Shown: in pieces, positions 33,400 through 52,811 of the stretch
Layout: every line of letters starts with the position of its first letter
Numbering within the stretch: the stretch's first letter is position 1
Assembly (NCBI GenBank): GCA_020073495.1
Contig: JAIQFD010000002.1
Span: 186,001-250,000, forward strand
DNA from: Terriglobia bacterium
Lineage (GTDB): Bacteria; Acidobacteriota; Terriglobia; Terriglobales; Acidobacteriaceae
Length of the DNA stretch: 64,000 nt
Reading direction: 5' to 3'
Notes under the pieces: model-generated
Told to the model about the DNA's origin: nothing
What the model saw: only the letters and a program-made list of their open reading frames with translations
The model's database searches: none
Program-made: the position numbers and the translations under genes

Positions 33400-33520
33400 T
33401 GGGCGCTGGGCGATAGCGGCGGGCGGCGACGCTCAAGCAGAGTGGCCGCGCGAATGCTTAATGCAACCCGTGGCCGAAAAGCTGGAGCGGCCCCAGGTCG
33501 AGCACCCGAGCGGAAGGCTT

Positions 33521-34063
33521 ATGGCAACGACTCAGATCGATCCACAGCAGGTCGAACGTTTCTTGGAAGGGTTCGACGATCGGAGATCCAACCTGATCGC
33601 CATCCTGCAGGAGATCCAAGCCACCTATTACTACCTGCCGGAGCAGATTTTGCGGCGCGTGGCGCGCAAGTTGCGCATCCCGCTGACCGAGGTCTACCAG
33701 GTCGCGACCTTCTATCGTTGCTTCAGTCTGAAGCCCCGCGGCAAGCACCTGTTGCAGGTGTGCCTGGGGACCGCGTGCCACGTGCGCGGGGCGCCGCGCG
33801 TGCTGGATCGCATCCTCACCGAGTTGCGGCTTCCCGCAGCCGGGACGACGCAGGACCGGGAGTTTACGGTGCTGGCGGTACGCTGCATCGGATGCTGCGG
33901 GCTGGCGCCGGTGGCGCGCGTGGACGCCAACACACATCCTCATCTCTCCCAGGCCAAGGTCCGCAGCATGTTGAAGAAGTACGCGCCGAAGGCGGAGAAG
34001 GCGGGTGCGAATTCCGCTCAGACCACAGGAGATCACAATGCCACGGCTGAACTCACTCAATGA
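33521..34063 (+). CDS. NuoE/HndA-like [2Fe-2S] subunit
   Basis: A 180-residue thioredoxin-fold subunit of the NuoE/HndA/HydC family carrying one [2Fe-2S] cluster. The four ligands lie in CLGTACHVRG and CIGCCGLAP. The ATG at 33521 follows GGAAGG; an ATG at 33461 has no ribosome site. It overlaps the NuoF-like gene by 26 bp. In this family it pairs with a NuoF-type NADH-oxidising subunit. Complex I membrane genes are absent nearby, so it belongs to a soluble oxidoreductase, here with a NuoF-like, a NuoG/HndD-like and an FMN glutamate-synthase-like protein. Confidence 0.92.
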   Translation: MATTQIDPQQVERFLEGFDDRRSNLIAILQEIQATYYYLPEQILRRVARKLRIPLTEVYQVATFYRCFSLKPRGKHLLQVCLGTACHVRGAPRVLDRILTELRLPAAGTTQDREFTVLAVRCIGCCGLAPVARVDANTHPHLSQAKVRSMLKKYAPKAEKAGANSAQTTGDHNATAELTQ

Positions 34064-35912: not shown

Positions 35913-36643
35913 CGCTCAACGGCATTCCGCTCGAGGTCGAACGCGGCACGACCGTGCTGGAAGCGGCGCGCTTCCTGGGTCTGCCCATCCCCACCCTGTG
36001 TCACGACGACGGCCTGGCTCCCGCCGGCGCGTGCCGGCTGTGCCTGGTCGAGGCTAGCCGCGGCGGCAACGGGGTCTCCAAGCTGCTCAGCGCGTGCACG
36101 CTTCCCGCCGACGACGGCCTGGTGGTCTGGACCCACTCGGAACGCGTGGAGCGGGCGCGGCGGCTCCTGCTGGAGATGTACGTGGCCACCTGCCCATCGT
36201 CGAAGCGCATCCAGGACCTGTGCGCGCAGTACGGGGTGCGGGAATGCCGCCACCAGCGCAAAGACGAGCGCTGCATCCAGTGCGGCCTGTGCGTCCGCAT
36301 GTGCGAGCAGCAGATGATGGCCGGCGCCATCGGCTTCTCGGGGCGCGGCAAGGACCGCATGGTGCACCGGCCCTTCGACATGACCAGCGACCGCTGCCGC
36401 CAGTGCGGCGCCTGCCTGTACATCTGCCCGGTGTGCGAATCGCGCTGCGCCGGGCCGCAGGCCGAGAGCACGCTGTGCAGCGGCTGCCTGAATTTCGCGC
36501 CCGTCTGTTTCCAGAGTTACGAGGACGCGATGTGCTTCCTCGATCCGTGCCACGCCTGCGAGCTGGCTGGCCCCCTGCGCCATGACGTCCAGGTGAAACG
36601 CAATCCGGAAAAGATTCTGACTTTAACAGGAGAAACCAAATGA
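35900..36643 (+). CDS. NuoG-N/HndD-like iron-sulfur subunit
   Basis: A 247-residue Fe-S protein resembling the N-terminal part of NuoG, HndD or HydA but without any hydrogenase H-cluster domain. A plant-type [2Fe-2S] domain comes first (CHDDGLAPAGACRLC), then a Cys-rich linker (TCPSSKRIQDLC), then a two-cluster ferredoxin domain (CIQCGLCVRMC and CRQCGACLYIC) and a Cys-rich tail (LCSGCLNFAPVC, DPCHACELAG) that could carry one more cluster. The GTG start at 35900 follows CAGGAG and overlaps the NuoF-like gene. It probably relays electrons between the flavoprotein and the FMN glutamate-synthase-like protein or ferredoxin. Confidence 0.87.
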   Translation: MPKLTLNGIPLEVERGTTVLEAARFLGLPIPTLCHDDGLAPAGACRLCLVEASRGGNGVSKLLSACTLPADDGLVVWTHSERVERARRLLLEMYVATCPSSKRIQDLCAQYGVRECRHQRKDERCIQCGLCVRMCEQQMMAGAIGFSGRGKDRMVHRPFDMTSDRCRQCGACLYICPVCESRCAGPQAESTLCSGCLNFAPVCFQSYEDAMCFLDPCHACELAGPLRHDVQVKRNPEKILTLTGETK

Positions 36644-38256
36644 GCTACACGCGCCTGAATTCATCCGCGGCCACCTTGACGAAGAACCGCACGGAAGACG
36701 CGGTCGTTCCCATCAGCGGCATGTGCGCCACCTGCGTCGATGGCTGCATCGGCATGTGCGAGATCGGCAAGTCGGCCTATCGCGGCGCGGAAATGATCTA
36801 TCCCCAGCCCTTCGGGATCATCACCACCGCCGCCACGAAGGATTACCCGGTCGATCTCTCGCACTTCACCATCCTCGGCCGGGCTGCCGGCGCATGGGGC
36901 ATCGAGCCGGACTCCAACAAGGCCCTCTTCCCCAACGTGAATCTCGAGGTAAGGTTAGGGCATGACGGCGGGATCCACCAGAAGCTGCCGTTCACCATCG
37001 CCGCCATGGGCTCGACCAACGTGGCCAAGAACAACTGGCCGGGCCTGGCGGCCGGCGCTGCCATCAGCGGCACCGGCATCGCCATCGGCGAGAACGTCGT
37101 GGGCATGGACATGGAGTCCGCGTTCGCCGCTGGCAAGGTCACCTCGAGCGTCGACCTGGACTGGCGCGTGAAGTGTTTCCGTGACTGGCAGAGCGACGGC
37201 TACGGCGAGGTGTACGTCCAGGCCAACGTCGAGGACACCATGCTTGGCGTGCAGGAATACGCCCTCAAGAAGCTGGGCGTACGCTCGGTCGAGCTGAAGT
37301 GGGGCCAGGGCGCGAAAGACATCGGCGGCGAAGTGAAGATCAAAGACCTGGCCAAGGCGCAGGAACTCCAGCGCCGCGGCTACGTCGTGTTGCCCGACCC
37401 GTCAAACCCGCGCGTCATCGAGTCCTTCAAGAGGGGCGGCTTCCACGAATTCGAGCGCCACTCGCGCGTGGGCATGGTCACGCTCGACGGCTTCCTGAAG
37501 CGCGTCGAGGAGCTGCGCAAGGCAGGCGCCAAGTACATCACGCTCAAGACCGGCGCCTACCGGCCGGTGGACCTGGCGCGCGCGGTCAAGTACGCCTCGG
37601 TCGCCCATCTCGACCTGCTGACGGTGGACGCGGCCGGCGGCGGCACCGGCATGAGCCCCTGGCGCATGATGAACGAGTGGGGCATTCCCGGCATCGAGCT
37701 GCACTCGCTGCTGCGCGATTACCTGATGCGCCTGAAGAAGAAGGGCGAGCACATCCCGGCGATCGCTCTGGCCGGCGGCTTCACCTTTGAAGACCAGATC
37801 TTCAAGGGATTCGCAATGGGCGCTCCATTCGTGAAGCTCATCGGGTGGGCACGCTCCCCGTTGGCCGCGGCCATGGTCGCCAAGACCATCGGCAACGCCA
37901 TCGAGGCGCAGAACTTGCCCATCTACATCGAGCGCTTCGGCACCACCAAGGACGAGATCTTCGTCACCTCCAGCGAGCTGCGGGAGAAGCTGGGCGACCG
38001 CTTCAACCAGCTCCCGGCAGGTGCGCTCGGCGTATACACCTACTACCAGCGCGTCGCCCAGGGGCTGCGCCAGTTGATGGCCGGGGCCCGCAAATTCGGG
38101 CTGGAGTACATCACCCGCGACGACATCGCTGCTCTCACCCCGGAGGCCAGCCGCTTGAGCGGGATCCCCATGGTGAGCGACATCGATTCCGACGAGGTCA
38201 ATGAGATTCTCGAGGCCGGCGAAGTGAAGAGGACGAGGTCCACCGCTGCGGACTAA
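36640..38256 (+). CDS. FMN glutamate synthase-domain protein with N-terminal Cys motif
   Basis: A 538-residue protein matching the FMN-binding synthase domain of glutamate synthase (GltB2-like), without the glutaminase domain. Recognisable parts are HDGGIHQKLPFTIAAMGS, ELKWGQGAKDIGGEV (flavin and 2-oxoacid site), TVDAAGGGTGMSPWRMMNEW and ALAGGFTFEDQIFKGFAMGA. The N-terminus adds CATCVDGCIGMCEIGK, a four-Cys motif likely to hold an Fe-S cluster. It overlaps the NuoG-like gene by 4 bp (ATGA). No GltD-like partner or glutaminase is next to it, so glutamate formation is doubtful; it may be the second flavin site of an NADH-linked bifurcating or ferredoxin-reducing complex. That role is inference. 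Confidence 0.85.
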   Translation: MSYTRLNSSAATLTKNRTEDAVVPISGMCATCVDGCIGMCEIGKSAYRGAEMIYPQPFGIITTAATKDYPVDLSHFTILGRAAGAWGIEPDSNKALFPNVNLEVRLGHDGGIHQKLPFTIAAMGSTNVAKNNWPGLAAGAAISGTGIAIGENVVGMDMESAFAAGKVTSSVDLDWRVKCFRDWQSDGYGEVYVQANVEDTMLGVQEYALKKLGVRSVELKWGQGAKDIGGEVKIKDLAKAQELQRRGYVVLPDPSNPRVIESFKRGGFHEFERHSRVGMVTLDGFLKRVEELRKAGAKYITLKTGAYRPVDLARAVKYASVAHLDLLTVDAAGGGTGMSPWRMMNEWGIPGIELHSLLRDYLMRLKKKGEHIPAIALAGGFTFEDQIFKGFAMGAPFVKLIGWARSPLAAAMVAKTIGNAIEAQNLPIYIERFGTTKDEIFVTSSELREKLGDRFNQLPAGALGVYTYYQRVAQGLRQLMAGARKFGLEYITRDDIAALTPEASRLSGIPMVSDIDSDEVNEILEAGEVKRTRSTAAD

Positions 38257-39466: not shown

Positions 39467-40798
39467 ATGTCCTGGATGGACGCGTATCGCAGCAAGTTAG
39501 CGACGGCGAACGAGGCGCTGAAGTGCGTCGAGTCGCACATGAGGGTATACATCCAACCCGGCTGCGCGGAGCCGGAGACGCTAGTAGGCGCCCTGATGAA
39601 CCGGGCGCCTTTCGTTCGAGATGTGGAGATCATCCACCTGATGACCATGGGCCGGGCGGATTACATCGCGCCCGAGATGGCCGGCATCTTCCGGCACAAC
39701 GCCATGTTCATCGGCGGCAACGTGCGCGACGCCGTCAATGACGGACGCGCCGACTACACGCCCATCTTCCTGAGCGAGATCGAAGCCCTGTTCGAGAGCG
39801 GCGAGATGCCGATCGACGTGGCGCTCGTCCAGGTATCGCCGCCGGACGCGCATGGCTTCTGCTCCTTCGGGGTCGGCGTGGACACCTCGCTCACCGCCGC
39901 CAAGAAAGCACGCTACGTCGTGGCCCAGGTGAATGGCCACATGCCGCGCACCTACGGCGACAGCTTCATCCATGTCTCCGATATCGACGTGATCGTCGAG
40001 GACACGCGGCCGCTCTGCGAACTGAAGAAGGTCGAGATCAGCGACCTGCATACCCGCATCGCGCGCAACGCGGCCACCCTGATCGAGGACGGCTGCACCT
40101 TGCAGTTGGGCATCGGGGGCATACCCGACGCGGTGCTGACTTTTCTGGGAGACCGCAAGGACCTGGGCGTGCACACCGAGATGCTGGCCGAGAATGCGAT
40201 CCCGCTGATCGATTCCGGCGTGATCAATGGCCGGCGCAAGACGATGCACCCGCGCAAGATCATCCTGGGCTTTGCCCTGGGCACAAAGAACCTTTTCGAC
40301 TACGTGCACGAGAACCCGATCTTTGAATTCCATCCCAGCTCCTACACCAACAACCCGGTGCTGATCGCCCAGAACGACCGCATGGTGGCCATCAATTCGG
40401 CACTGCAGATCGACATCACCGGCCAGATCTGCGCCGACTCCATGGGCACCCAGTTCTACAGCGGTATCGGCGGGCAGGTGGACTTTATCCGTGGGGCGAC
40501 GCGCTCCAAGGGCGGCAAGCCCATCATCGCCCTGCCGGCGACCGCCAAGAACGACACCATCTCGCGCATCGTCCCCATGCTGTCGCCGGGCGCCGGCGTG
40601 GTGACCTCGCGCGGCGCGGCCCACTACATCGTCACTGAATTCGGTGTGGCCTACCTGCACGGACGCAACATCCGCCAGCGGGCCGAAGCGCTCATCCAGA
40701 TCGCCCATCCCAACTTCCGGAACGAGCTGTACGAATACTGCGAGCACACCAAGTGGCTCGCCCGGCCCACTGAATTTGCAGCTACCGATTCGAGGTGA
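39467..40798 (+). CDS. Acetyl-CoA hydrolase/4-hydroxybutyrate CoA-transferase family enzyme
   Basis: A 443-residue family I-like CoA-transferase of the acetyl-CoA hydrolase/Cat2/AbfT group, which moves CoA between acetyl-CoA (or another acyl-CoA) and a carboxylic acid through a glutamyl-CoA intermediate. Signatures include LQLGIGGIPDAVLTFLG, the probable catalytic Glu in GVHTEMLAENAI, and the C-terminal GGQVDFIRGA and RGAAHYIVTEFGVAYL. The start at 39467 follows AAGGGGA. It is 3 bp ahead of the ferredoxin gene. In this cluster it could activate the organic acid that later meets the reductase, avoiding a ligase; the true substrate cannot be read from sequence. Confidence 0.88.
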   Translation: MSWMDAYRSKLATANEALKCVESHMRVYIQPGCAEPETLVGALMNRAPFVRDVEIIHLMTMGRADYIAPEMAGIFRHNAMFIGGNVRDAVNDGRADYTPIFLSEIEALFESGEMPIDVALVQVSPPDAHGFCSFGVGVDTSLTAAKKARYVVAQVNGHMPRTYGDSFIHVSDIDVIVEDTRPLCELKKVEISDLHTRIARNAATLIEDGCTLQLGIGGIPDAVLTFLGDRKDLGVHTEMLAENAIPLIDSGVINGRRKTMHPRKIILGFALGTKNLFDYVHENPIFEFHPSSYTNNPVLIAQNDRMVAINSALQIDITGQICADSMGTQFYSGIGGQVDFIRGATRSKGGKPIIALPATAKNDTISRIVPMLSPGAGVVTSRGAAHYIVTEFGVAYLHGRNIRQRAEALIQIAHPNFRNELYEYCEHTKWLARPTEFAATDSR

Positions 40799-40801
40799 AG
40801 C

Positions 40802-41062
40802 ATGGCGGCGGTTTCGCGTGGATCGATCAAGATAGACACACAGGAATGCAAAGGCTGCGGATTATGCGTCGAGTCGTGCCCGCCGCACTGCCTGGAGCTC
40901 GAATCTGGGCTCAACCAGTACGGCGTGCACCCGGCGCATTACGCCGGGGAAGGCTGCACCGGGTGCGGCATCTGCTTCTACTGCTGCCCCGAGCCGGGCG
41001 CGATTACGGTGCTGCGCCTGGTGGCTCCGGCGCCGGAGGTGGCCCATGCGGCAACTGTCTAA
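40802..41062 (+). CDS. 2[4Fe-4S] ferredoxin, oxidoreductase delta subunit
   Basis: An 86-residue two-cluster ferredoxin with [15 protein letters not shown] and [15 protein letters not shown]. The second motif ends in Cys-Cys-Pro-Glu-Pro-Gly, as in delta subunits of 2-oxoacid:ferredoxin oxidoreductases. It overlaps the alpha-subunit gene by 17 bp. It is probably both part of that enzyme and the electron carrier toward the benzoyl-CoA reductase-like complex. Confidence 0.92.
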
Positions 41063-42098
41063 GGGCAATGTCGCCGTCATCAAGGGCGCCATCCAGGCGG
41101 GATGCCGGGCGTTCTACGGCTATCCCATCACGCCCGCCAGCGAGATCGCAGAAGCCGCTGCTCTCTATATCCCCGAAGTCGGAGGGACGTTCGTGCAGGC
41201 GGAGAGCGAGGTTGCGGCCATCAACATGGTTTACGGGGCGTCGTCCTGCGGGCAGCGCGTGATGACCGCATCCTCCGGCCCCGGCCTAAGCCTGATGCAG
41301 GAGGGCATCTCCTATCTCGCAGGCTCCGAGTTGCCGTGCGTGATCGTGGACGTGGTGCGCGGCGGGCCGGGCCTGGGCAACATTGCGCCCGAGCAGAGCG
41401 ACTACTTCGCCATGGTGAAGGGCGGAGGCCATGGCAACTACCACAACATCGTCGTGGCGCCGGCCTCCGTGCAGGAGATGTGCGATCTGACGATCCTGGC
41501 CTTCGAGCTGGCGGACCGCTACCGCAATCCCGCTATCGTGCTGACCGACGGTTTCGTCGGCCAAATGATGGAGCCGCTGGAGATCGAGGAGCGCGACGTC
41601 CCCATCCCCGACAAGCCCTGGGCGGTGAAGGGAACGGCGGAGACACGCAAGAACCTGATCACTTCCATCTACCTGACGCCCGAAGAACTCGAGGCGCATG
41701 TGCGCAAGCTGGAGGCCAAGTACAAGTCGGCGGAGGTCGAGGCCTGCGACGAAACCTATATGGCCGAGGACGCCGAGATCCTGCTGGTGGGCTATGGCAT
41801 CGTGTCGCGCGTGCTGCGCTCGACCGTGGAACAGTTGCGTAAGCTCGGCGTGAAGGCCGGCCTGTTCCGGCCAATCACCTTGTGGCCTTACCCGTCGCAG
41901 GCGCTGGCGCACGCCGCGCGCCGCTGCCGGATGGTGCAGGTGGTCGAGATGAGCACCGGGCAGATGGTGGAGGACGTCCGGCTGGCGGTGAACGGAAGCG
42001 TGCCGGTCGAGCTTTACAGCCGGGTGGGCGGGTCTGTGCCCGGGGTCGAAGAGGTGCGCGACCACATCCTGGCGCAGGTCACCACGCTGGTGCTGTGA
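41046..42098 (+). CDS. 2-oxoacid:ferredoxin oxidoreductase, alpha subunit
   Basis: A 350-residue alpha subunit (VorB/KorA family). The N-terminal pyrimidine-binding domain has [17 protein letters not shown] and [20 protein letters not shown], the stretch [18 protein letters not shown] is typical, and a transketolase-C-like domain follows ([20 protein letters not shown]). With its partners it decarboxylates a 2-oxoacid oxidatively to an acyl-CoA and reduces ferredoxin. In Thauera and relatives a 2-oxoglutarate:ferredoxin oxidoreductase supplies electrons to benzoyl-CoA reductase; that is the likely role here. Sequence alone does not separate 2-oxoglutarate from branched-chain substrates. Confidence 0.92.
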
Positions 42099-42107
42099 GG
42101 AGGAAGA

Positions 42108-43565
42108 GTGTCCGAATACAAGGTGGTGCAACAGAAGTCGCCGGTCTTTTACGACCATTACGAACGCAAGGCCGATCTCCAGCACCAGACGCACTACTGC
42201 CCCGGCTGCGGTCACGGGGTGGCGCACAAGCTGATCGCCGAGGCCATCGCCGACCTGGGCGTGCAGGACCGTACGGTGTTCATCAGCCCCGTCGGCTGCT
42301 CCGTCTTCGCCTACTACTACTTCGACGTGGGCAATATCCAGGCGGCACACGGGCGGACGCCGGCGGTGGCCACCGCCGCCAAGCGCGCTAACCCGAACAG
42401 CATCGTGGTCGCCTACCAGGGCGATGGCGATCTGGCGGCCATCGGCACAGCGGAGATCATCCATGCCGCCAACCGCGGCGAGAAGATCACCTGCTTCTTC
42501 CTCAACAACGCCATCTACGGCATGACCGGCGGTCAGATGGCGCCCACCACGCTGGTGGGCATGCCGAGCACCACCAGCCCCTGGGGGCGCCGCCCGAGCA
42601 ACGAGGGCTTCCCGCTGCACGTCTGCGAACTGCTGGCCACGCTGGAGGCGCCGGCGTACATCGAGCGCGTGGCGCTCAGCGACAACAAGAACATCATGAA
42701 AGCGCGCAGAGCCATTCGGAAGGCGCTGGAGAACCAGGTGAAGGGCGTCGGCTTCTCGCTGGTCGAGATTCTGTCGCCGTGCCCCACCATCTGGAAGCTG
42801 GATCCGGTGCAGGCGCGCGCCTGGGTGGCGGAGAAGATGATCCCCGTGTTTCCGCTGAACGTCTTCCGCGACCGCGTGCCGGAGATGCCGAAGTCCGCCG
42901 AGCCGCCGCAAAAGTCCGTCCGCGAGGTGCTGGAGATCGACCGGCAGCCGCTCACGGTACAAGGGAACGGCCACAAGCATCCCGCCCGCGAGATCACCAT
43001 CAAGGTCGCCGGCTTCGGGGGCCAGGGCGTCCTTCTGCTGGGCCAGTTGCTGGCGGAGATGGGGATGGCGGAGAAGATGGAAGTGAGCTGGCTGCCGTCG
43101 TACGGCCCGGAGATGCGCTCGGGCAGCGCTCATTGCCACGTCTGCTTCTCCCACGAGCGGGTCGGTTCGCCGTTGATCTCGCACCCGGACGTGCTGATCG
43201 CGATGAACGAGATCTCCCTGCGCAAGTTCGCGCCGCAGGTCGAGTCCGGCGGGCTCATCATCTACAGCCGGGACCGGCTGCCGGAAGATTTCGAGGTGCC
43301 GCAGGGCGCACGCGCGGTCTGCGTGCCGGCGTTCGACATGGCCGACCACCTGGGATCGGCCAAGGTGGCGAACACTATCCTGCTGGGCGCTCTGCTGGCC
43401 GAAACCGAGTGCCTGCAGGCGGCAACCGCAGAGGCGGTGCTCGAGGCCAAGGTCAAGAACCCGAAGTATGTCGAGCTGAACCGGAAGGCGCTGGCCCTGG
43501 GCCGGCGCTACGACGAGCACGAGCTGCACGTCTCCCTGTCCCAGCCGGACGGGTTCGCGAGTTAG
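42108..43565 (+). CDS. 2-oxoacid:ferredoxin oxidoreductase, fused beta-gamma subunit
   Basis: A 485-residue fusion. Residues 1-280 are the TPP-binding beta subunit (HYCPGCGHGVAHKL, YQGDGDLAAIGTAEI, LNNAIYGMTGGQMAPTT). Residues 295-480 are the gamma subunit (IKVAGFGGQGVLLLGQLLAE, SWLPSYGPEMRSGSAHCHV). In most KOR/VOR enzymes these are separate proteins. A linker of about 40 residues (SAEPPQKSVREVLEIDRQPL) joins them. The GTG start follows GGAGGAAGA, 9 bp after the alpha gene. A terminator-like hairpin follows, so this gene closes the operon that includes the CoA-transferase and ferredoxin. Confidence 0.92.
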   Translation: MSEYKVVQQKSPVFYDHYERKADLQHQTHYCPGCGHGVAHKLIAEAIADLGVQDRTVFISPVGCSVFAYYYFDVGNIQAAHGRTPAVATAAKRANPNSIVVAYQGDGDLAAIGTAEIIHAANRGEKITCFFLNNAIYGMTGGQMAPTTLVGMPSTTSPWGRRPSNEGFPLHVCELLATLEAPAYIERVALSDNKNIMKARRAIRKALENQVKGVGFSLVEILSPCPTIWKLDPVQARAWVAEKMIPVFPLNVFRDRVPEMPKSAEPPQKSVREVLEIDRQPLTVQGNGHKHPAREITIKVAGFGGQGVLLLGQLLAEMGMAEKMEVSWLPSYGPEMRSGSAHCHVCFSHERVGSPLISHPDVLIAMNEISLRKFAPQVESGGLIIYSRDRLPEDFEVPQGARAVCVPAFDMADHLGSAKVANTILLGALLAETECLQAATAEAVLEAKVKNPKYVELNRKALALGRRYDEHELHVSLSQPDGFAS

Positions 43566-43782: not shown

Positions 43783-44691
43783 ATGGGGGTGTCGGTGCCT
43801 GTTCCGGCCATCGATTTCATGTACTACGTCGCGACCCGCGAGTTCATGGAGCAGTGGGACCGCGCCAAGCAGGGAGAGCTGGTCTGCCGCATGGAGAAGG
43901 CCATCGGCGGCCTGCCGCGCTACAACTCCATCGAGGAGATGATCGCGCTGATGGACGCGGCCGGCGTCGAGAAGGTCTTCATCGTGCAGTGCAAGATGTG
44001 GTCCTACTGGCGCAAGTGGATGTACATGGACACGCGCCTGGAGGACGTCCTCCAGTACACCCAGAAATATCCCGACCGCTTCGTCGGGCTGGCCGGCTAC
44101 AACCCGTTCCGCATCAAAGAGAGCCTGGCCGAGATCGAGATGTCGGTGCGCACCTGCGGCTTCAAGGGCGTGTACGTCCACATCTACGGCTTCGACATTC
44201 CCCTCAACGACGCCAAGATGTACCCGCTTTACGCCAAGTGCGTGGAACTGGGCGTTCCCGTCTCCCTGCAGGTGGGCCACGTGCTCGAGGCCATGCCCAG
44301 CGACTGCGCGCGCCCCATGCAACTGGATCGCATCGCCTGCGATTTCCCCGAACTGAAGATGGTCGGCGCGCACACCGGCTGGCCGTGGGTGGATGAGCTG
44401 CTCTCCGTCTGCTACAAGTGGGAGAACATCTGGTTCGGCGTCGATGCCTGGATGCCGAAGTACCTCTCCCCGCAGATCGTGCAGTTCATCAACAGCCGCC
44501 TGGGACGCGACCGCTGCCTCTGGGGCACCAACGGCCTGTCTTGGAAAGAATCTCTGCGGCAGGTCGACGAGCTGGGGCTGAAAGACGACGTCAAGCGCAA
44601 GCTGCTACATGACAACGCGGTCGAGCTGTTCGGGCTGGGAAAACCCGCGGCCGCAGTGACCGTAGAGACTGTCGGAGTCAGCAAAGCATGA
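43783..44691 (+). CDS. Amidohydrolase-fold protein lacking metal ligands
   Basis: A 302-residue TIM-barrel protein of the amidohydrolase-2 (ACMSD/COG2159) family. The overall pattern fits: a mid-protein VGLAGYNPF, then SLQVGH, MVGAHTGWPWVDELL and a C-terminal LWGTNGLSWKESL. The metal site does not. The N-terminal HxH normally seen after the first strand (IDxHxH) reads IDFMYYV, and the final Asp (GSD) is Asn (GTN). The two later histidines remain. It may bind no metal, or use a different one. It heads the operon ending with the benzoyl-CoA reductase-like genes and overlaps the SDR gene by 4 bp. It might act as a ring hydrolase or decarboxylase. The start could be a GTG at 43795, because the ATG has no ribosome site. 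Confidence 0.8.
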   Translation: MGVSVPVPAIDFMYYVATREFMEQWDRAKQGELVCRMEKAIGGLPRYNSIEEMIALMDAAGVEKVFIVQCKMWSYWRKWMYMDTRLEDVLQYTQKYPDRFVGLAGYNPFRIKESLAEIEMSVRTCGFKGVYVHIYGFDIPLNDAKMYPLYAKCVELGVPVSLQVGHVLEAMPSDCARPMQLDRIACDFPELKMVGAHTGWPWVDELLSVCYKWENIWFGVDAWMPKYLSPQIVQFINSRLGRDRCLWGTNGLSWKESLRQVDELGLKDDVKRKLLHDNAVELFGLGKPAAAVTVETVGVSKA

Positions 44692-45458
44692 GCCTGGTGG
44701 ACCTGGCAGGGAAGAGCGCTGTGGTGACCGGCGGGGCGCGAGGGATCGGCCGCGCCATCGTGCAGGTGCTTGCGGAGTGCGGCGCCGAGGTGATGATCGC
44801 CGATCTGCGCTTCGACGAAGCCGATACCGCGGCGCGCGAGATCGCAAGCGCCACCGGGCGGCGCGTGCTCGCCTGCGCGACCGATGTCACCAAACTGGAG
44901 CAGGTCCAGGCCATGCGCGACCAGGCCGTCGCGCAGTTGGGAAAGATCGACATCCTGGTGAACAACGCGGGATGGGACCGCATCCAGCCCTTCGTCAAGA
45001 CCACACCCGAGCTGTGGGAGCGCATCATCGCCATCAACTACAAGGGCGTGATCCACACCTGCTACGTGGTGCTGCCGCACATGCAATCGCGCAAGCAGGG
45101 AGCGATCGTCAACCTGAGCTCCGATTCGGCGCGCGTCGGTTCCCTCGGCGAGGCCATCTACTCCGGCGCCAAGGCGGCGATCGTCGCCTTTTCCAAGACG
45201 CTGGCGCGCGAGCATGCGCGCGACAACATCCGCGTCAACGTGGTTTGCCCCGGGCTGGTCGAGACCGGCTTGCTGACCGAGATGCGCGAGGACGAGTTCG
45301 CCTCGAAGATCCTGGGCTCCATCGTCAATGCCATTCCGCTTAAACGCTTCGCCGAGCCCTGCGAGATCGCGCCCCTGGTGGCGTTCCTCGCCTCGGACGC
45401 GGCGCGCTACATCACCGGACAGGTCACCAGCGTCAACGGCGGCCTGACCATGGTCTGA
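44688..45458 (+). CDS. BadH-like short-chain dehydrogenase
   Basis: A 256-residue classical SDR. The NAD(P) motif is TGGARGIG near residues 15-22, followed by ILVNNAGWD, the catalytic Ser in NLSSDSARVGS, YSGAKAAIVAFSKTLAREHA (Tyr and Lys) and GQVTSVNGGL. Stretches such as NNAGWDRIQPFVKT, SDSARVGSLGEA and AFSKTLAREHARDNI resemble my memory of BadH, the 2-hydroxycyclohexanecarboxyl-CoA dehydrogenase of Rhodopseudomonas. It should oxidise a hydroxy-acyl-CoA ring intermediate made after the reductase and hydration. It lies between the amidohydrolase-fold gene and the reductase genes. Confidence 0.88.
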   Translation: MSLVDLAGKSAVVTGGARGIGRAIVQVLAECGAEVMIADLRFDEADTAAREIASATGRRVLACATDVTKLEQVQAMRDQAVAQLGKIDILVNNAGWDRIQPFVKTTPELWERIIAINYKGVIHTCYVVLPHMQSRKQGAIVNLSSDSARVGSLGEAIYSGAKAAIVAFSKTLAREHARDNIRVNVVCPGLVETGLLTEMREDEFASKILGSIVNAIPLKRFAEPCEIAPLVAFLASDAARYITGQVTSVNGGLTMV

Positions 45459-45481
45459 CCGGAATAGAAGGGAAGGGTACC

Positions 45482-46654
45482 TTGAGCGCGACCGTGCCGT
45501 CGCTGGGGATAGAACGAACGTTCGATAGATACGCGGAGCTGATCCAGGACCTGAGCTTCCCCTCCGTCCGGCGTTGGAAGGACGAGAACCGGCGCCCGGT
45601 GATCGGCTACTTTCCCGTGTATGCGCCCCTGGAGCTGATCCACGCCTGCGGCATGCTGCCGGTGGGGCTCAACGGCGCGGGCGACCAACTCGACATCCAG
45701 CACGCCGACGCGCGCTTCGGCTCGTTCATCTGCTCCATCGTCAAGACCACGCTGGAGATGGGCCTGACCGGCCACCTCGACCTGTTCGACGGCCTGCTCT
45801 TCTCCTCCATCTGCGATTCGGCGCGCAACCTGGCCTTCGTGATGAAACGCAACTTCCCGCAGAAATTTGTGGAATTCCTGCACCTGCCGCATAACCCCTC
45901 GTCCCCCGCCAGCGCGGAATTCCTGTGTGCGGAATACGCACGCTTGCGGGAGGGCCTGGAGGCCGTGGGCGGAAGACGCGCGGACGACGCGGCGTTGTCA
46001 CAGGCGATCGCCCTCTACAACGAGAATCGCACGCTGACGCGGCAGCTCTACCGCTTCCGCTCCGAGAACCCTCACCGGCTACGCACATCGGACCTGTACG
46101 CCGTGGTGCGGGCCGGCAACTTCCTGCCCGTCGAGGAGCACAACGGCTGCCTGGCGCAAGCGCTGGCGGAAGCGGTCCAGAACGGCGCAAAGCCGCGGGA
46201 CAGCGTTCGCGTTTTGGTGGAAGGCTCGTTCTGCGAGCAGCCGCCGCTGCAACTGATCAAGCTGATCGAACAGGCGGGATGCTACGTGGTAGAGGACGAC
46301 TTCATCCTCGGCCCACGCTGGTTCACGGGAGACATTCCGAAGAGCGGAGACCCGCTCCTGGAGCTCGCCAAGAGCTACCTTGACCTGTCGGTGTATTCCT
46401 CCGTCCGCCACGATGCGCGCAAGCCCCGGCACAAGGAGCTGATCGCCAAGGCGAGGCGCAACCGCGCGCAAGCGGTGATCCTGCTGGTGGCGAAGTTCTG
46501 CGAGCCGGCCTACTTCGACTACGTGCTGTACAAGCGCGAACTGGAAGCCGCCGGCATCCCTCATCTTCTGGTCGAGTTCGAGGAAAAAATGTTCACCTTC
46601 GAGCGCCTCCAGAACGAGGTCGAGACCTTTGTGGAGTCGTTGCTGTTCGATTGA
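45482..46654 (+). CDS. bcrC: Benzoyl-CoA reductase-like subunit C
   Basis: A 390-residue protein of the HgdB/BcrC family, one of two subunits that hold the active-site [4Fe-4S] cluster. Cluster-type cysteines lie in ELIHACGMLPVGL, SSICDSARNL and GSFCEQPPLQLIKLIE. The stretches AVVRAGNFLPVEEHN and GCYVVEDDF are those I associate with BcrC/BadD/BzdN rather than with 2-hydroxyglutaryl-CoA dehydratase. The start is TTG at 45482 after GGAAGGG. A second copy of the operator palindrome lies in codons 11-15. It is 9 bp ahead of the B subunit gene. I expect reductive dearomatisation of an aryl-CoA; assignment as dehydratase is the alternative. Confidence 0.85.
   Translation: MSATVPSLGIERTFDRYAELIQDLSFPSVRRWKDENRRPVIGYFPVYAPLELIHACGMLPVGLNGAGDQLDIQHADARFGSFICSIVKTTLEMGLTGHLDLFDGLLFSSICDSARNLAFVMKRNFPQKFVEFLHLPHNPSSPASAEFLCAEYARLREGLEAVGGRRADDAALSQAIALYNENRTLTRQLYRFRSENPHRLRTSDLYAVVRAGNFLPVEEHNGCLAQALAEAVQNGAKPRDSVRVLVEGSFCEQPPLQLIKLIEQAGCYVVEDDFILGPRWFTGDIPKSGDPLLELAKSYLDLSVYSSVRHDARKPRHKELIAKARRNRAQAVILLVAKFCEPAYFDYVLYKRELEAAGIPHLLVEFEEKMFTFERLQNEVETFVESLLFD
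45512..45525. promoter_or_regulatory. Palindromic operator, copy 2 (inside bcrC)
   Basis: The same 14 bases GAACGAACGTTCGA as at 43766-43779, here inside the first codons of the C-subunit gene. Sites flanking a promoter by 1.7 kb could allow looping, or it may mark a second promoter ahead of the reductase genes. Confidence 0.45.
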
Positions 46655-46663
46655 GAGGAAAGT

Positions 46664-47938
46664 ATGACGCAGGCGCGAAGCGAGTACCGCGGGCAGATCC
46701 ACCAGAGACAGAAAGAGCTGATGCTGAAGTGGTACGAGCGCCTGGACGAGGCTGCGCGGACCGGCAGCCCGCCCACGGCCGCAATGATGATCTCCGGCAA
46801 TTGCGTCGAGCTGCTGGAGGGATTCGGCGCCGTGCCCCTCTATCCGGAGATCAACGCGCTGCAACTCGCCATCCGGCACCAGTCGCTCGAGCCGATCCTG
46901 GTAGCGGAGGAGCTGGGCTACGCCGCCGACAACTGCGCCTACGTGAAGGCCGACATCGGCGCCTACCTGAAGGGCCTGACCCCCGCCGATGGCAAGCTGC
47001 CGACGCCTTCGCTGGTGCTGTGCAACTTCGTCGGCTGCAACACCTACATCAAGTGGTTCGAGCACGTCGCGGAGCTGCAGGGCGCACCGTTGTACATGCT
47101 CGACGTGCCTTTCCTGCGGACCGACGAGCCGTCGCGGGCCGATATCGACTACGTTATCCGGCAACTGAAGGAAGTGGTGCAGCGACTGGAGGAGATCACC
47201 GGCCGAAAATTCGATTACGACCGTTTCCAGCAGGCCGTGCGCTGCTCCAGCCGGGTCGAGGATCTGTGGTCGAAGATCAAGCACCTGGCCCGCCTGACGC
47301 CCTCACCTTTCGACGCCTATTTCGACGCCATCACGCTCATGGGCCCGCTCTACGTGTACCGCGCCACGCCTGAGGGCGTGGAATTCTTCGAGATCGCGCT
47401 GAAGGAGATGGAAGAGAAGGTCGCCGGGGGGCAGGGCATCTACGACGCGGAGAAATTCCGCGTCGTGATCGAGGGCCCGCCGCCGTACCCGTATTTCCGC
47501 ACCTTCCGCGACATGTTCGCCAAGTGGAAGGCTTGCGCGGTGGCCTCGACCTATTCGACCGTCGGCGGGTTGTGGGAGTTCGGCGCTCGCCACGATCCCG
47601 AGCACCCCTTCGAGGCGGTCGCGCTGCACATGCTGGCGCAGAACGTCACCAACCGGAACTACCTGCAACGCTACGAGCAGATCCGGCGCTACGTCGAAGA
47701 GTGGAACGCGCACGGGCTGATCATCCACTTCGTGAAGAGCTGCCGGCTGTTCTCCGCGGGGCAGGGCGACATGCGCGACTACTTCACCAAGACGCTGGGC
47801 ATCCCCACCCTGTACCTGGAATCGGACCTGGAAGATCCGCGCTATTTCGCCGAGGCGCAGACCAGGAACCGCATTGATGCGTTCTTCGAGTCGCTGGAAC
47901 ATCAGCACCTGACGCGCATGCACCAAGAGGCCAGATGA
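46664..47938 (+). CDS. bcrB: Benzoyl-CoA reductase-like subunit B
   Basis: A 424-residue partner of subunit C, also of the HgdB family. Characteristic segments are [59 protein letters not shown] and [20 protein letters not shown]. These match the BcrB/BadE/BzdO type as I know it. Together B and C form the substrate and active-site module. The start follows GAGAGGAAAG. The stop overlaps the first activase start (ATGA). Confidence 0.87.
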
Positions 47939-48780
47939 GATTCGCAGCCGGAGTGGACGTGGGTTCCACGCAAACCAAGTCGGTGATCATGCGCGATAAC
48001 GGCGACCGCGGCCCCGAGGTGGTGGCTCGCGCGCTGGTGGATACCGGCGCCAACGTGCAGAAGGCGGCAGAGCACGGCTTCCAACAGGCATGGCGCGACG
48101 CCGGCCTATCGCCACAGGATGTCGGTTTCGTGGTAGGCACCGGCTACGGACGGTACAAGATCACCTTCGGCAATGCGCAGATGACGGAGATCAGCTGCCA
48201 CGCTCGCGGGGCCCACTTCCTGTTTCCCGGTACGCGCACGGTGATCGACATGGGCGGACAGGACTCAAAAGCCATCAGCGTGGGCAAGGACGGCGAGGTG
48301 CTCGACTTTGTCATGAACGATAAGTGCGCCGCGGGGACCGGGCGCTTCCTGGCCAACGCGGCGGAGGTCATGGGGCTTTCGCTGGACGAGGTCGGGCCGA
48401 TGTCGCTGAAGGGCACCAAGCCGGTGAAGATCACGACGGTGTGCACGGTGTTCGTGGAGTCCGACATCCTGTCGTACCTGGCGCAGGAGAAAAAGGCGGA
48501 AGACATTCTGCGCGGCGTGAACCTGGCCATCGCCCGGCGGACGGTGTCGCTGGCCCGCCGCGTGCCCATCGAGCCGGACATCACCTTGACCGGAGGCGTA
48601 GCGAAGAACATAGGCATGGTCAAGGCGTTAGAGGAAGTCCTGAATGTAACGCTTCAAGTCAGCCCGGACGCGCATTTCGTGGGCGCCATCGGGGCCGCGC
48701 TGTTCGCGCTGGAGAAGATGGACCAGAGCTTCGAGACCGGCATTTGGAGGAGCGCGCATGCGACTGGTAGCGGGCATTGA
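47935..48780 (+). CDS. Benzoyl-CoA reductase-like ATP-hydrolysing activase subunit 1
   Basis: A 281-residue BcrA/BadF/HgdC-family ATPase of the ASKHA fold. Motifs are [12 protein letters not shown] (phosphate 1), [12 protein letters not shown] (phosphate 2) and [15 protein letters not shown] (adenosine). Two cysteines, in [12 protein letters not shown] and [11 protein letters not shown], would provide half of the [4Fe-4S] cluster that bridges the two activase subunits. ATP hydrolysis here drives electrons onto the B-C module. The length (281) fits the Azoarcus Bzd-type, in which both activases are small, rather than the Thauera type, whose BcrA has about 430 residues. Confidence 0.88.
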
Positions 48781-49579
48781 TATCGGGTCGGGGATCACCA
48801 AGGCAGTCGTTATCCAGGCGGATGGTGACGCGAGGCCGAGAGTGATCGGGCGGGGAACGGTAAAGACCGGGGTGCAGCTCGAGCGCGCCGCCCATGAGGC
48901 CCTGGAGCTGGCGTCGCAGCAGGCCGGGATCAAGCTGACCGAGGCCTACATCGCGACCACCGGCTTCGGCCGCTATGCCGCCTCCTTCCGCGACATCCAG
49001 ATCACCGACATCACCAGCGCCGCCCGGGGCGCTCGCTTCCTGGTCCCGCGGACCACGACCGTACTGGACATCGGCAGCCAGTCCACACGGGCCATCCGCC
49101 TGACCGAGGCCGGCCGTGTCGCGCAGTTCAAGAGCAACGACAAGTGCGCGGCGGGCTCGGGCAGTTTCATCGTGCGCGCCGCCAAATACCTGGAGATCCG
49201 CCTGGAGGACGTTGGCGAGCTGGCGGTAAAAGCGGAGAACCCGCAGCCCATCTCGAGCGTCTGCGCGGTGCTGGCGGAGAGCGAGATCATCAACCACGTC
49301 AGCGCGGGGGTGAGCGTGGAAGACATCGTGCGCGGCATCTACGATTCACTCGCCGACCGCGCCTCCCTGCTGCTGAGGCGTGTGGGCATGGGCAACGAGC
49401 TTACCTTCATCGGCGGCGTGGCCCGGCAGCGCGGGATGGTGAAGGCGCTGGAATCGCGCCTGGGCGTGCCCGTGCACGTGCCCGAGGGCAGCGATGAGGT
49501 CTGCGCCATCGGCGCCGCACTGCTTGGCCTGAAGCGTGTCGAATCACGCAAAGGAGAACCTGTTCCGGCCGGGCGGTGA
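48758..49579 (+). CDS. Benzoyl-CoA reductase-like ATP-hydrolysing activase subunit 2
   Basis: A 273-residue paralogue of the preceding activase, overlapping it by 23 bp with its own ribosome site (GGAGG). Motifs are [24 protein letters not shown] and [15 protein letters not shown]. Cluster cysteines lie in [12 protein letters not shown] and [12 protein letters not shown]. Two different activases forming a heterodimer distinguish benzoyl-CoA reductases from 2-hydroxyacyl-CoA dehydratases, which use a single homodimeric activator. The second phosphate motif reads DIGSQST instead of the usual DxGGQD, so the two ATP sites may differ in activity. Confidence 0.87.
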
Positions 49580-49621: not shown

Positions 49622-50722
49622 ATGAATGTCGATCCGAACCAGGCCCGCGCCTGGACCCTTCCCTCGAACCTCTACACCGATCCCACCGTGCTTGCCGAGG
49701 AGAAAGACAAGATCTTCGCGCGCACGTGGCAGGTCGTCGGACACATCCGCCAGCTCGCGAATCCAGGCGACTACCTGACCACAGAACTGGTTGGAGAACC
49801 GCTGCTAGTCGTCCGCGACAACGCCGGAGAACTGCGCGCCTTTTACAACGTCTGCCGGCATCGCGCCGGACCGCCTGCGGAGGGCTGTGGTTCGCGCAAG
49901 GTCTTCCGCTGCGGCTATCACGGCTGGACCTACTCCCTCGAAGGGAAGCTGCTGAACGCGCCGGAGATGGAGGGCACCGAGAACTTTCGCCACGAGGAGA
50001 TCGGCCTAGTCCCGATCCGGGTCGAGGAGTGGTCGGGGCTGGTGTTCGTGAATCTTGACGACCGCTGTCCGTCGCTCGCGCACACTCTCGGCGAGCTGCC
50101 GCAGCAAGCGGCACGCTTCGGCTTCGATCGCATGCAGTTGTTCTATCGCCGCGATTACCTCATGGACTGCAACTGGAAGACCTACATCGACAACTTCCTC
50201 GAGGGATACCACTTGCCCAGCGTGCATCCCGGCCTGAACCGCGAGCTGGACTACGGCAATTACCTCACCGAGACCTGCGCCGGTTACTCGCGGCAACTGA
50301 GCCCCATCCGCGGGGCGGAAAATGCCGCCGACGGCCCGCGGCGATACCAGCAGCAATCGGGCAGCGATGTGGCCGAATACTTCTGGGTCTTTCCCAACTG
50401 GATGCTCAACTGCTACCCCGATAACGTCTCGCTCAACATCGTCCTCCCGCTTGGACCGGAGAAGTGCGTGGCGAAGTTCGAGTGGTGTTTTCCGGAGGAG
50501 ACGTTCGTGACCGGCCTGCCGCAGCAGACGGTGGAGTTCAGCGACTCAGTGCAGATGGAAGACGGGCACATTTGCGAGGTCGTGCAGAAGAACCTGCGCT
50601 CGCGCAGCTACCACCGCGGGCGGTACTCGGCGAAGCAGGAGAAATGCCTGCACCACTTCCACACCCTGTACGCGCAAATGATGGAGACACCGGTCGTCAA
50701 TCGCCAGCGGGCGGCGAAATAA
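49622..50722 (+). CDS. Rieske non-haem iron oxygenase, alpha subunit
   Basis: A 366-residue ring-hydroxylating-oxygenase-type alpha subunit. The Rieske [2Fe-2S] site is CRHRAG and CGYHGWTY (residues 78-106). The mononuclear iron site lies in DCNWKTYIDNFLEGYHLPSV with the following HPGL. The sequence resembles choline/carnitine-type monooxygenases (GbcA, CntA) at least as much as aromatic dioxygenases. No beta subunit or reductase is adjacent. It starts 42 bp after the activase genes and might be co-transcribed, although an O2-dependent enzyme behind an O2-sensitive reductase is unexpected. Confidence 0.88.
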   Translation: MNVDPNQARAWTLPSNLYTDPTVLAEEKDKIFARTWQVVGHIRQLANPGDYLTTELVGEPLLVVRDNAGELRAFYNVCRHRAGPPAEGCGSRKVFRCGYHGWTYSLEGKLLNAPEMEGTENFRHEEIGLVPIRVEEWSGLVFVNLDDRCPSLAHTLGELPQQAARFGFDRMQLFYRRDYLMDCNWKTYIDNFLEGYHLPSVHPGLNRELDYGNYLTETCAGYSRQLSPIRGAENAADGPRRYQQQSGSDVAEYFWVFPNWMLNCYPDNVSLNIVLPLGPEKCVAKFEWCFPEETFVTGLPQQTVEFSDSVQMEDGHICEVVQKNLRSRSYHRGRYSAKQEKCLHHFHTLYAQMMETPVVNRQRAAK

Positions 50723-50746
50723 CGCACTTCCTGGGCGGCTCCGATA

Positions 50747-52138
50747 TCAAGAGCCGGCGGTCTGCGTGGCTGGGGCAGGCGCTACAGCCGCCGCCGCAGT
50801 GCGGGCCTCCAGCTTCATGCGCATGCCATACTTCGGGCGCAGCGTGATCTGCGGCTGGATGGCGATGCGCTGGCCGGGGTCGAGCCGCATGCGCCACTGC
50901 TGCCCGATCGTGGCCAGCAGCAGCACACCTTCCATCCAGGCAAAGCCCTCGCCGATGCACTGGCGCGGACCGCCCCCGAAGGGAAAGTAAACGAACTTTG
51001 GCCGCGCCGATTTCTGCTCCGCCGTCCAGCGTTCGGGAAGAAACCTGTCCGGCTCAGGGAACCAGCGCACATCGCGGTTCATCAGATACTCGACCATGAG
51101 GAACAGGGTTTGCGGTGGGAATGTGTAGCGCCCGTAGCTGTACGGCTCAACATTGAGCCGCGCTACGCTCCATGCCGGAGGGTACAAGCGCATGGATTCC
51201 GACAGCACCATCTCCGTGTAGGGCAGGCGCGGATAATCGCCGGCTGTCGGCAACCGGCCAGCTAGCGCGCGATCCACTTCCTCGTGGAAGCGCTTCTCGG
51301 CCGCCGGATTCTGCGACAGCAGGTACCAGGTCCAGGTCAGCGCGTTCGCGGTCGTCTCGTGACCGGCCAGGAATATGGTGAGGCACTCGTCTCGCAATTG
51401 GGCGTCGGTCATGCCAGTGCCGTCGCCCTCGAAGTCGGTGGCGCTGAGCAGTATGGAGAGCAGGTCGCCGCGGTCCTCGCCGCGGGCGCGCCGTTCGTTA
51501 ATGATGCGGTACACGATGCGGTCAAGCCGCTCTCTCGCGCGCTCCATCCGCCGGACGGGCGGTAACGGCAACTTTTCCAGGTATTCGGAGAAGGGGAAGA
51601 GGAGAAACCCGAACAGTCCCATGATGTCGCTGAGCGCCGCGCCGATCTCTTCGGCGTCGCTCTCGACATCGGCGTCGAAGAGCGTGCGCGCGACGATGGC
51701 CAGTGTGAGGCGCATCATGGATTCGTGCATGTCGAGCGTGACGCCATCCTGCCAGCGGCTGCGGGCGCGGGCCGCGTAGGCAACCATCTTCTCCGCGTAA
51801 CCCGCGATGCGCTGGCGATGGAACGCCGGCTGCGCCAGGCGCCGTTGCCTCATGTGCAGGTCGCCCTCGCTGGTCAGCAGTCCTTCTCCCAGCAACCGCT
51901 TGGCCCGCTGCAGCACGCGTCCCTTGAAGAATTTGCGGTTGTTCGTGACCAGCACGTCCCTGATCATCTCGGGATCGCCGATCAGCACGATGCGCTGATT
52001 GCCTACGGTGAAGGAGGAGATGTCGCCGTACTCTCGCTGCACCTTGGCGAGAAATTTGAGCATGTCGCGGCGGAACGGAACCATGTTTGCACCGGGCAGC
52101 TTGGGTCGAGGCCCCGGCGGGTAGGCGTATCTGGACAT
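50747..52138 (-). CDS. Cytochrome P450
   Basis: A 463-residue P450 monooxygenase. The haem-binding loop is [15 protein letters not shown] with Cys near residue 394, the K-helix ExxR lies in [12 protein letters not shown] and the I-helix oxygen motif is [12 protein letters not shown]. The ATG at 52138 gives the usual Pro-rich N-terminus ([11 protein letters not shown]). There is no membrane anchor. Ferredoxin and reductase partners are not adjacent. It is the last gene of a minus-strand run after an FkbM methyltransferase and two M16 peptidases; the gap is 34 bp. The substrate is unknown. Confidence 0.94.
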
Positions 52139-52172
52139 CGGAGCTATTTCACCACAGGACGCGGGGAAGTGG

Positions 52173-52811
52173 TCACGGCGTGGCCAGCAGTTCGCCGGGC
52201 ACGAGTTCGCGCAGGTGGTAGCCAAGCCCGGTGAGCGTTCGCGTACAGCTCTCCCGCAGCGCAGCCCCGTGTGTAGAGAGGAAGATGGCCGGTCGTGTGT
52301 GCTCCAGCAGGCTGCGTCCGCCGGCGAGCACGGCCTCTTCCGCGCCTTCCACGTCGATCGTTACGACGTCAGGGGCAGGGAAGCGCTCGCCAAGTGCATC
52401 GAGCGTCGTCAGCCGGACAGTGATAGGACCCGTCGGCGAGAGATGGCCCACGCCCGAGCCGGCGCGATCATCGAAGCGTGCCTCGCCTTCGTGATCGCTG
52501 ACGGCGGTTTCCAGCACGGTAACGTTGTCCGCATGATTGAGTTGGATGTGACGCCGCAGCACAGAAAGGTTACGCGGCGAGGGCTCGAAAGCGATCACCC
52601 GGCCACTTGGCCCGGCCAACTGTGACGCCAGCAGGCTGTAATAACCGTAGTGCGCGCCCACGTCGTACACTACGGATCCCGGGCGCACCACTTGCTGAAA
52701 CGCCGCGGTCTGCTCCGGCTCGTAGGTTCCCATAAAGAAGTTGACGCGCGTGGCCACCAGCCACCGCATGCCCTTGAGCGGCCCCTTAAGGATCGGCAGC
52801 GAAAGGCTCAC
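52173..52811 (-). CDS. FkbM-family methyltransferase
   Basis: A 212-residue SAM-dependent methyltransferase of the FkbM family. Motif I is [17 protein letters not shown], motif II is [12 protein letters not shown], and the family hallmark [17 protein letters not shown] is present. FkbM enzymes mostly O-methylate sugars or small molecules. The start is GTG, overlapping the stop of the M16 gene by 4 bp (GTGA), so it is translationally coupled to a peptidase, which is unusual. Confidence 0.9.

Follow-up and report, generated by a model that had tools for sequence, protein, structure and literature searches.

The 64,000-nucleotide stretch analysed here (hereafter the window), from contig JAIQFD010000002.1 of a Terriglobia bacterium of the phylum Acidobacteriota, carries at 43783-49579 on the + strand six genes in one operon, encoding an amidohydrolase, a short-chain dehydrogenase (SDR), the putative benzoyl-CoA reductase (BCR) subunits C and B, and the activases A and D. 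A check of the open reading frames gave intergenic gaps of -4, 23, 9, -4 and -23 bases along the operon. The first gene (43783-44691) encodes an amidohydrolase-2 family protein of 302 residues, which matches PF04909 with 118 bits (cutoff 26) and is proposed here as a ring-opening hydrolase in place of Oah. It was not mentioned in the initial annotation of this DNA and proved to be the most interesting of the six. The second gene encodes the SDR (256 residues, 44688-45458), a proposed substitute for the zinc-type Had. It had been called BadH-like, and BadH is indeed its best named model (TIGR03206, 263 bits), but the score lies under the cutoff of 431.

Subunit C (390 residues, 45482-46654) and subunit B, the putative active-site subunit (424 residues, 46664-47938), match PF06050 (HGD-D) with 252 and 229 bits; no other HGD-D match occurs in the whole 3.70 Mb genome, rated 100% complete. 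Activases A (281 residues, 47935-48780) and D (273 residues, 48758-49579) match PF01869 (BcrAD_BadFG family) with 237 and 173 bits; other models matched are TIGR00241 (272 bits), BcrA (198 bits) and BzdQ (180 bits) for A, and TIGR00241 (216 bits) and BcrD (167 bits) for D. The translations of both activases contain NDKCAAG plus a C-x-V-F/L-x-E-S motif, the cysteines of which presumably hold the bridging cluster. Reading frames and family matches agree with the initial annotation, which had described C, B and two different activases of these sizes, each with its two cluster cysteines, in a bcrCBAD-like order in one operon of a probable acidobacterium.

Several features are those of class I reductases: the operon joins two HGD-D subunits to two distinct ASKHA activases, B keeps the three cysteines of its aqua [4Fe-4S] site, and C has at least three cluster cysteines. 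Among solved chains in the PDB, C is nearest to MbdN (304 bits), followed by 2-hydroxyisocaproyl-CoA dehydratase (HadC, 183 bits) and BzdN (132 bits), and B is nearest to MbdO (222 bits), followed by the same dehydratase (HadB, 169 bits) and BzdO (116 bits). In NCBIfam, C matches BcrC (TIGR02263) with 347 bits and B matches BcrB (TIGR02260) with 308 bits, under the Bcr-type cutoffs of 421 and 487.

Trees of C and B were made with 75 rows each (69 different), comprising the window, the near-complete C and B of the 40 acidobacterial and the amidohydrolase loci, and PDB references. They are quick, midpoint-rooted trees without bootstrap, and their dehydratase references are one solved 2-hydroxyacyl-CoA dehydratase (HAD), which is long-branched and has a C of odd composition, and the single-activase loci L074 and L079. 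Window C and B fall within a clade of Bcr-type and 3-methylbenzoyl-CoA reductase (MBR)-type rows (65 C rows and 66 B rows; SH-like approximate likelihood-ratio test, SH-aLRT, 98 in both), which excludes HadC/HadB, L074 and L079 in both trees. The Bzd type also lies outside, so that the class I enzymes are not seen as one clade. The Bcr/MBR/window clade splits in three: the Bcr type (loci with a large A), the MBR type with MbdN/MbdO, and a clade containing the window (30 C rows, SH-aLRT 91; 31 B rows, SH-aLRT 96), which is sister to the MbdN/MbdO clade and not part of it.

These data make it very improbable that C-B is a 2-hydroxyacyl-CoA dehydratase of amino acid fermentation, which the shared superfamily and the CoA-transferase gene upstream might have suggested. 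There are two activases instead of the single activator of such dehydratases, the references lie outside in both trees, and the HadB and HadC models score 201 and 206 bits against 308 and 347 bits for BcrB and BcrC; we rejected this identity on model scores and trees. The initial annotation had offered placement of C and B inside the dehydratases, or of both activases among single activators, as the outcome that would speak against a class I-like reductase; since C and B lie outside the dehydratase references and two activases are present, it holds on this point.

It had compared the small activases with the Azoarcus Bzd type, but the reductase is not of this type. Six cysteines of BzdN bind the [8Fe-9S] double-cubane cluster, and residue roles including that of BzdO His131 have been described (PMC11971306, in the part available). 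Window C keeps three of the six, those common to MbdN, as do 24 of 24 members of its clade examined, while each of the 7 Bzd-type rows has all six. In B, Tyr stands where BzdO has His131, in all 24 members of the window clade examined and likewise in 17 of the 18 rows of the MBR clade. The cysteines and the trees rule out the Bzd type, and MbdN/MbdO outscore BzdN/BzdO. From its sequence, the enzyme is very likely a class I, ATP-dependent benzoyl-CoA reductase of the Bcr/MBR part, in a subclade of its own beside the MBR type.

The initial annotation also suggested another substrate than benzoyl-CoA, against which the genomic context speaks. In a genome of the same family (G257), a related locus (L043; C 61% and B 79% identical) continues with Had (438 bits, cutoff 339), Oah (549 bits, cutoff 464) and a Dch-like crotonase. 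The genome of the window itself encodes a benzoate-CoA ligase (626 bits, cutoff 375) and, at a separate locus (L178), a 4-hydroxybenzoyl-CoA reductase, the alpha subunit of which scores 1019 bits (cutoff 995); its beta and gamma subunits are under cutoff, and for gamma a glyceraldehyde dehydrogenase model gives a marginally higher score. L178 also encodes a BoxB-like protein and a CoA-transferase pair. Because of the Had/Oah context of L043 and of the ligase and 4-hydroxybenzoyl-CoA reductase in the same genome, benzoyl-CoA would be the likeliest substrate of C-B-A-D. That the enzyme acts on a substituted compound, for example 3-methyl- or 3-hydroxybenzoyl-CoA, is unlikely: the closest solved relative is a 3-methylbenzoyl-CoA reductase and the Tyr at the His131 position is shared with MBR-clade rows, but genome and neighbour context favour benzoyl-CoA.

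Two other observations concern aromatic metabolism around these reductases. The BoxB-like protein (L178:10235-11410, contig C3 of the same genome; 232 bits against a BoxB cutoff of 499) lies beside anaerobic benzoyl-CoA genes, and BoxB-like genes are also found at L065/L139, L147 and L134 (370-391 residues in L065 and in the window genome's own copy), so that an aerobic/anaerobic hybrid is possible. A molybdenum-enzyme gene of one cluster adjoins the reductase in six loci (L040, L044, L045, L049, L050 and L054); the L040 copy, which is open-ended, matches the DMSO-reductase II family with 208 bits (cutoff 985) and ethylbenzene dehydrogenase alpha with 106 bits.

Among 396 acidobacterial genomes, 83 encode a homologue of C (E 1e-20 or below), of which 80 were examined further and three weak ones (74-78 bits) left out. 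The 56 with a C match of at least 200 bits were taken as reductase carriers; such reductases are common in Acidobacteriota. In the genome of the window, Oah is absent (best 67.6 bits, cutoff 464), a search for Had gave no match at E 1e-50 or below, and the best BadI score, 126.6 bits, stays under the cutoff of 467.6. The amidohydrolase is present in 13 of the 56 carriers; 12 copies score 516 bits or more, and that of G370 is a fragment of 275 bits located at the end of its contig. Oah reaches E 1e-40 in none of the 13. Among the 43 carriers without it, Oah exceeds 380 bits in 29, a relative of 148-207 bits is present in 11 and none in three; the exclusion gives a Fisher p of 1e-5 with kinship ignored. 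In the 24 genomes with a weaker C, the amidohydrolase was found at 250 bits in none and Oah above 380 bits in four.

The dehydrogenases follow the same division. Had over cutoff occurs in 0 of the 13 amidohydrolase genomes versus 34 of the 43 others, and the SDR, at E 1e-60 or better, in 9 of 13 versus 0 of 43; a Had-like gene of 219-257 bits is present in 3 of the 13, and these are three of the four amidohydrolase genomes that lack the SDR. BadI as the missing hydrolase was rejected, since it is over cutoff in none of the 13. The operon probably combines a class I reductase with two further enzymes belonging to a variant of the lower benzoyl-CoA pathway. That the SDR stands in for Had and the amidohydrolase for Oah in ring opening seems to us slightly better than an even case. 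The new part is this amidohydrolase-SDR module, a probable replacement of Had and Oah.

The amidohydrolase was sought in genomes with a C homologue and by a scan of the genome collection with two short peptide patterns from its alignment, and may also occur in genomes that have no reductase. The scan gave 58 loci with relatives 66-86% identical, all in metagenome-assembled or uncultured genomes by their record titles. They span Acidobacteriota, Rokubacteria, Binatia, Acetothermia, Fraserbacteria, Armatimonadota, Planctomycetota, metagenome-assembled genomes named Deltaproteobacteria and Desulfotomaculum, and others. The SDR is present at 42 of the 58 loci, within 700 bp in 37 of these, and the zinc Had-like gene at three; the two are never together. 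A Dch-like gene is found at 25 loci, and no Oah at any of the 58 within the fetched stretches (best 88.6 bits). At the thresholds used nine loci have no partner, several of them being short or at contig ends. C or B is visible at 39 loci, 25 of the window type, 10 MBR, two Bzd-like and two Bcr (at the last two the SDR copies are only weak matches), and the module, which thus accompanies four kinds of class I reductase, is not tied to a single type. In 17 genomes without C or B at the amidohydrolase locus, HGD-D proteins were found elsewhere in 12 (in G445 as two short fragments) and none in five.

Other genes recur at these loci. A GNAT-like protein cluster lies beside amidohydrolase or BCR genes at 12 loci, including L117:3681-4265 (PF00583 tested in L117 only). 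In R. palustris the N-acetyltransferase BadL is needed for benzoate catabolism (PMC6191541, in the part available), and the GNAT-like cluster may be a parallel. A hemerythrin-like cluster is found at 10 loci, including L117:16874-17425 (PF01814 tested in L117 only), perhaps for oxygen sensing or scavenging. The 11 BCR genomes with the 148-207 bit Oah relative (G005, G039, G011, G318, G071, G003, G357, G100, G207, G185 and G278) have neither the amidohydrolase nor a strong Oah, and perhaps use a third type of ring opening.

The predicted model of the amidohydrolase has a TIM-barrel fold (predicted local distance difference test score, pLDDT, 84) and is closest to 3irs_A (Z 27.0, root mean square deviation 3.1, 266 aligned residues); LigW, LigJ, ACMSD and LigY (Z 19.3) are among its further neighbours. 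LigY is a C-C hydrolase, so there is a precedent for C-C hydrolysis in the superfamily. H133, H166, H197 and D221 are invariant in 38 amidohydrolase sequences. As the fold neighbours include decarboxylases, we also considered an upstream hydroxybenzoate decarboxylase, yet such a role leaves the exclusion with Oah unexplained and was rejected.

Several observations weigh against the amidohydrolase-SDR replacement, the first of which lies in the protein itself. The first-strand HxH and last-strand Asp, which we take to be the metal ligands of the family, are replaced by M13 and Y15 (both invariant) and N250. A metal-activated water is therefore doubtful, and the picture we prefer, a guess, is that water activated by acid-base residues would attack an already activated beta-oxo thioester. 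In the phylogenetic analysis the amidohydrolase state changes five times on the C tree (32 rows scored), and in five independent pairs Oah never changes the same way and changes the opposite way in 2.2 on average, these pairs being too few for a sign test at 0.05. Moreover, 14 of the 43 genomes without amidohydrolase likewise lack a strong Oah, and of 50 amidohydrolase genomes searched whole, three (G417, G421 and G433) have an over-cutoff Oah elsewhere and one has a weak relative. Among the 13 carriers, G148 and G074 have a BadI-like crotonase (261 and 257 bits, cutoff 468), and in G131 the SDR is only 54% identical and on a different contig from the amidohydrolase. The Dch candidate of the window genome, a crotonase at L178, scores 150 bits against a cutoff of 292.5. 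Finally, the benzoate cluster of Geobacter metallireducens includes an amidohydrolase, BamU, in a genome that also has Oah (PMC1924859, in the part available), and thus an amidohydrolase of this superfamily can coexist with Oah.

Some of these points would fit a class I BCR whose amidohydrolase acts at another step, as hydratase, isomerase or accessory protein, with a generic crotonase opening the ring. The absent metal ligands, the several unassigned crotonases of the genome and close structural relatives that include decarboxylases and the hydratase LigJ all favour it. We nevertheless regard it as rather unlikely, given that Oah is strictly absent from all 13 acidobacterial carriers of the amidohydrolase and that no crotonase of the window genome comes near the Oah or BadI cutoffs. 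A route like that of R. palustris, in which cyclohexene or cyclohexanecarboxyl-CoA compounds are the intermediates, the SDR acts as BadH and the amidohydrolase replaces BadI, would agree with BadH being the best named model of the SDR. It is improbable in view of the sub-cutoff BadH score and of L116, L117 and L124, where the amidohydrolase is paired with zinc Had-like and Dch-like genes and not with the SDR. In L116 these match two enzymes of the diene route, the 6-hydroxycyclohexene enzyme (258 bits, cutoff 338.65) and Dch (184 bits, cutoff 292.5), both under cutoff. Returning to the replacement of Oah, the full proposal is that Oah/BamA has been replaced, in uncultured Acidobacteriota, Rokubacteria, Binatia, Acetothermia, Fraserbacteria and others, by an amidohydrolase that opens the ring as a C-C hydrolase lacking the customary metal site, with the SDR serving for Had; we put it forward tentatively, as falling a little short of an even case.

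In the pathway that we propose, a KorAB-like 2-oxoacid:ferredoxin oxidoreductase would reduce ferredoxin and so feed electrons to the reductase, as KorAB does in Thauera aromatica (PMC9973337, in the part available). The A/D activase heterodimer would spend ATP to drive electrons by way of a [4Fe-4S] cluster of C into the [4Fe-4S]-OH2 site in B, where benzoyl-CoA would be reduced to the 1,5-diene. A Dch-like crotonase may then hydrate the diene, the SDR would oxidise the hydrated product in place of Had, and the amidohydrolase would open the ring in place of Oah. Gene order, family and clade membership, the conserved cluster cysteines and the distribution of the replacement across genomes are seen directly in the sequences, from which the single reactions, the substrate and the path of the electrons are inferred.

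Genes that may provide this electron supply, which the initial annotation had also placed upstream, lie on the same strand at 40802-43565: an 86-residue 4Fe-4S ferredoxin matching Fer4 models, a likely electron carrier (40802-41062), the VorB/KorA-like alpha subunit of the oxidoreductase (41046-42098; NF005507, 526 bits, over the cutoff of 399) and a beta-gamma fusion (42108-43565), separate parts of which match PorB/KorB and KorC models. They are preceded by a CoA-transferase gene (39467-40798, +; butyryl-CoA:acetate CoA-transferase model, 311 bits, cutoff 675). A Rieske oxygenase alpha subunit (49622-50722, +; PF00355 and PF00848) begins 42 bp past activase D. The Rieske, CoA-transferase and KorAB genes gave no match at the 40 acidobacterial reductase loci, and korA/korB-like matches occur at three of the 58 amidohydrolase loci (L129, L142 and L152); we rejected all three as conserved parts of the module. 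Being absent from related loci, the Rieske oxygenase is probably outside it. Farther upstream (33461-38256) there are HoxE/NuoE-, NuoF- and glutamate-synthase-like genes, a possible NADH-linked electron input to ferredoxin or flavin, and in the region 49622-52225 the Rieske gene is followed by a cytochrome P450 (PF00067, 268 bits) on the opposite strand.

A related question exists in naphthalene degradation. According to the available part of a 2025 review (PMC12016498), the hydrolase of the first ring has not been identified, and neither N47 nor NaphS2 has an oah gene; the review names ThnN, an amidohydrolase akin to the functionally uncharacterised BamU, as the leading candidate, still untested, for the opening of ring I. 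No Geobacter, N47 or NaphS2 title is among the 58 close relatives of the window amidohydrolase. The pattern of exclusion with Oah is independent support for an amidohydrolase in a role of this kind, although BamU comes from an organism with an Oah. In the titles and abstract starts listed by searches of the open PubMed Central literature, we found no proposal of an amidohydrolase replacing Oah apart from the ThnN suggestion. The Oah/bamA gene serves as a marker to track anaerobic ring fission in the environment (PMC3794298, in the part available). If our proposal is correct, bamA surveys miss these lineages, uncultured groups are being counted as non-degraders, and in naphthalene degradation ring I would be opened by the related ThnN. 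The pattern suggests a missed and widespread variant of the benzoyl-CoA pathway, for which the window offers a well conserved protein with a defined predicted substrate.

Compared with known systems, the reductase most resembles MbdONQP (MBR, PDB 9g87), with which both C and B share the three-cysteine pattern, although MbdN/MbdO belong to the sister clade and window B is 34-38% identical to the loci of that clade. With the Thauera-type BcrCBAD it shares the gene order C-B-A-D and the best equivalog models, but it is below both cutoffs and its A, of 281 residues, is smaller than the A of 438-445 residues found at the Bcr-type loci L067 and L139. The two small activases recall BzdNOPQ, from which the window differs by lacking three of the six [8Fe-9S] cysteines, by the change of His131 to Tyr and by its clade. 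The amidohydrolase has the fold of LigY, LigW, LigJ and ACMSD (Z about 19-23) at less than 25% identity, and its group is without their HxH and last-strand Asp. ThnN of the naphthalene-degrading N47 and BamU of G. metallireducens are likewise amidohydrolases in anaerobic aromatic clusters. The module fills the same slot beside BCR as the Dch-Had-Oah lower pathway (BamR-BamQ-BamA), with the difference that the positions of Had and Oah are occupied by the SDR and the amidohydrolase.

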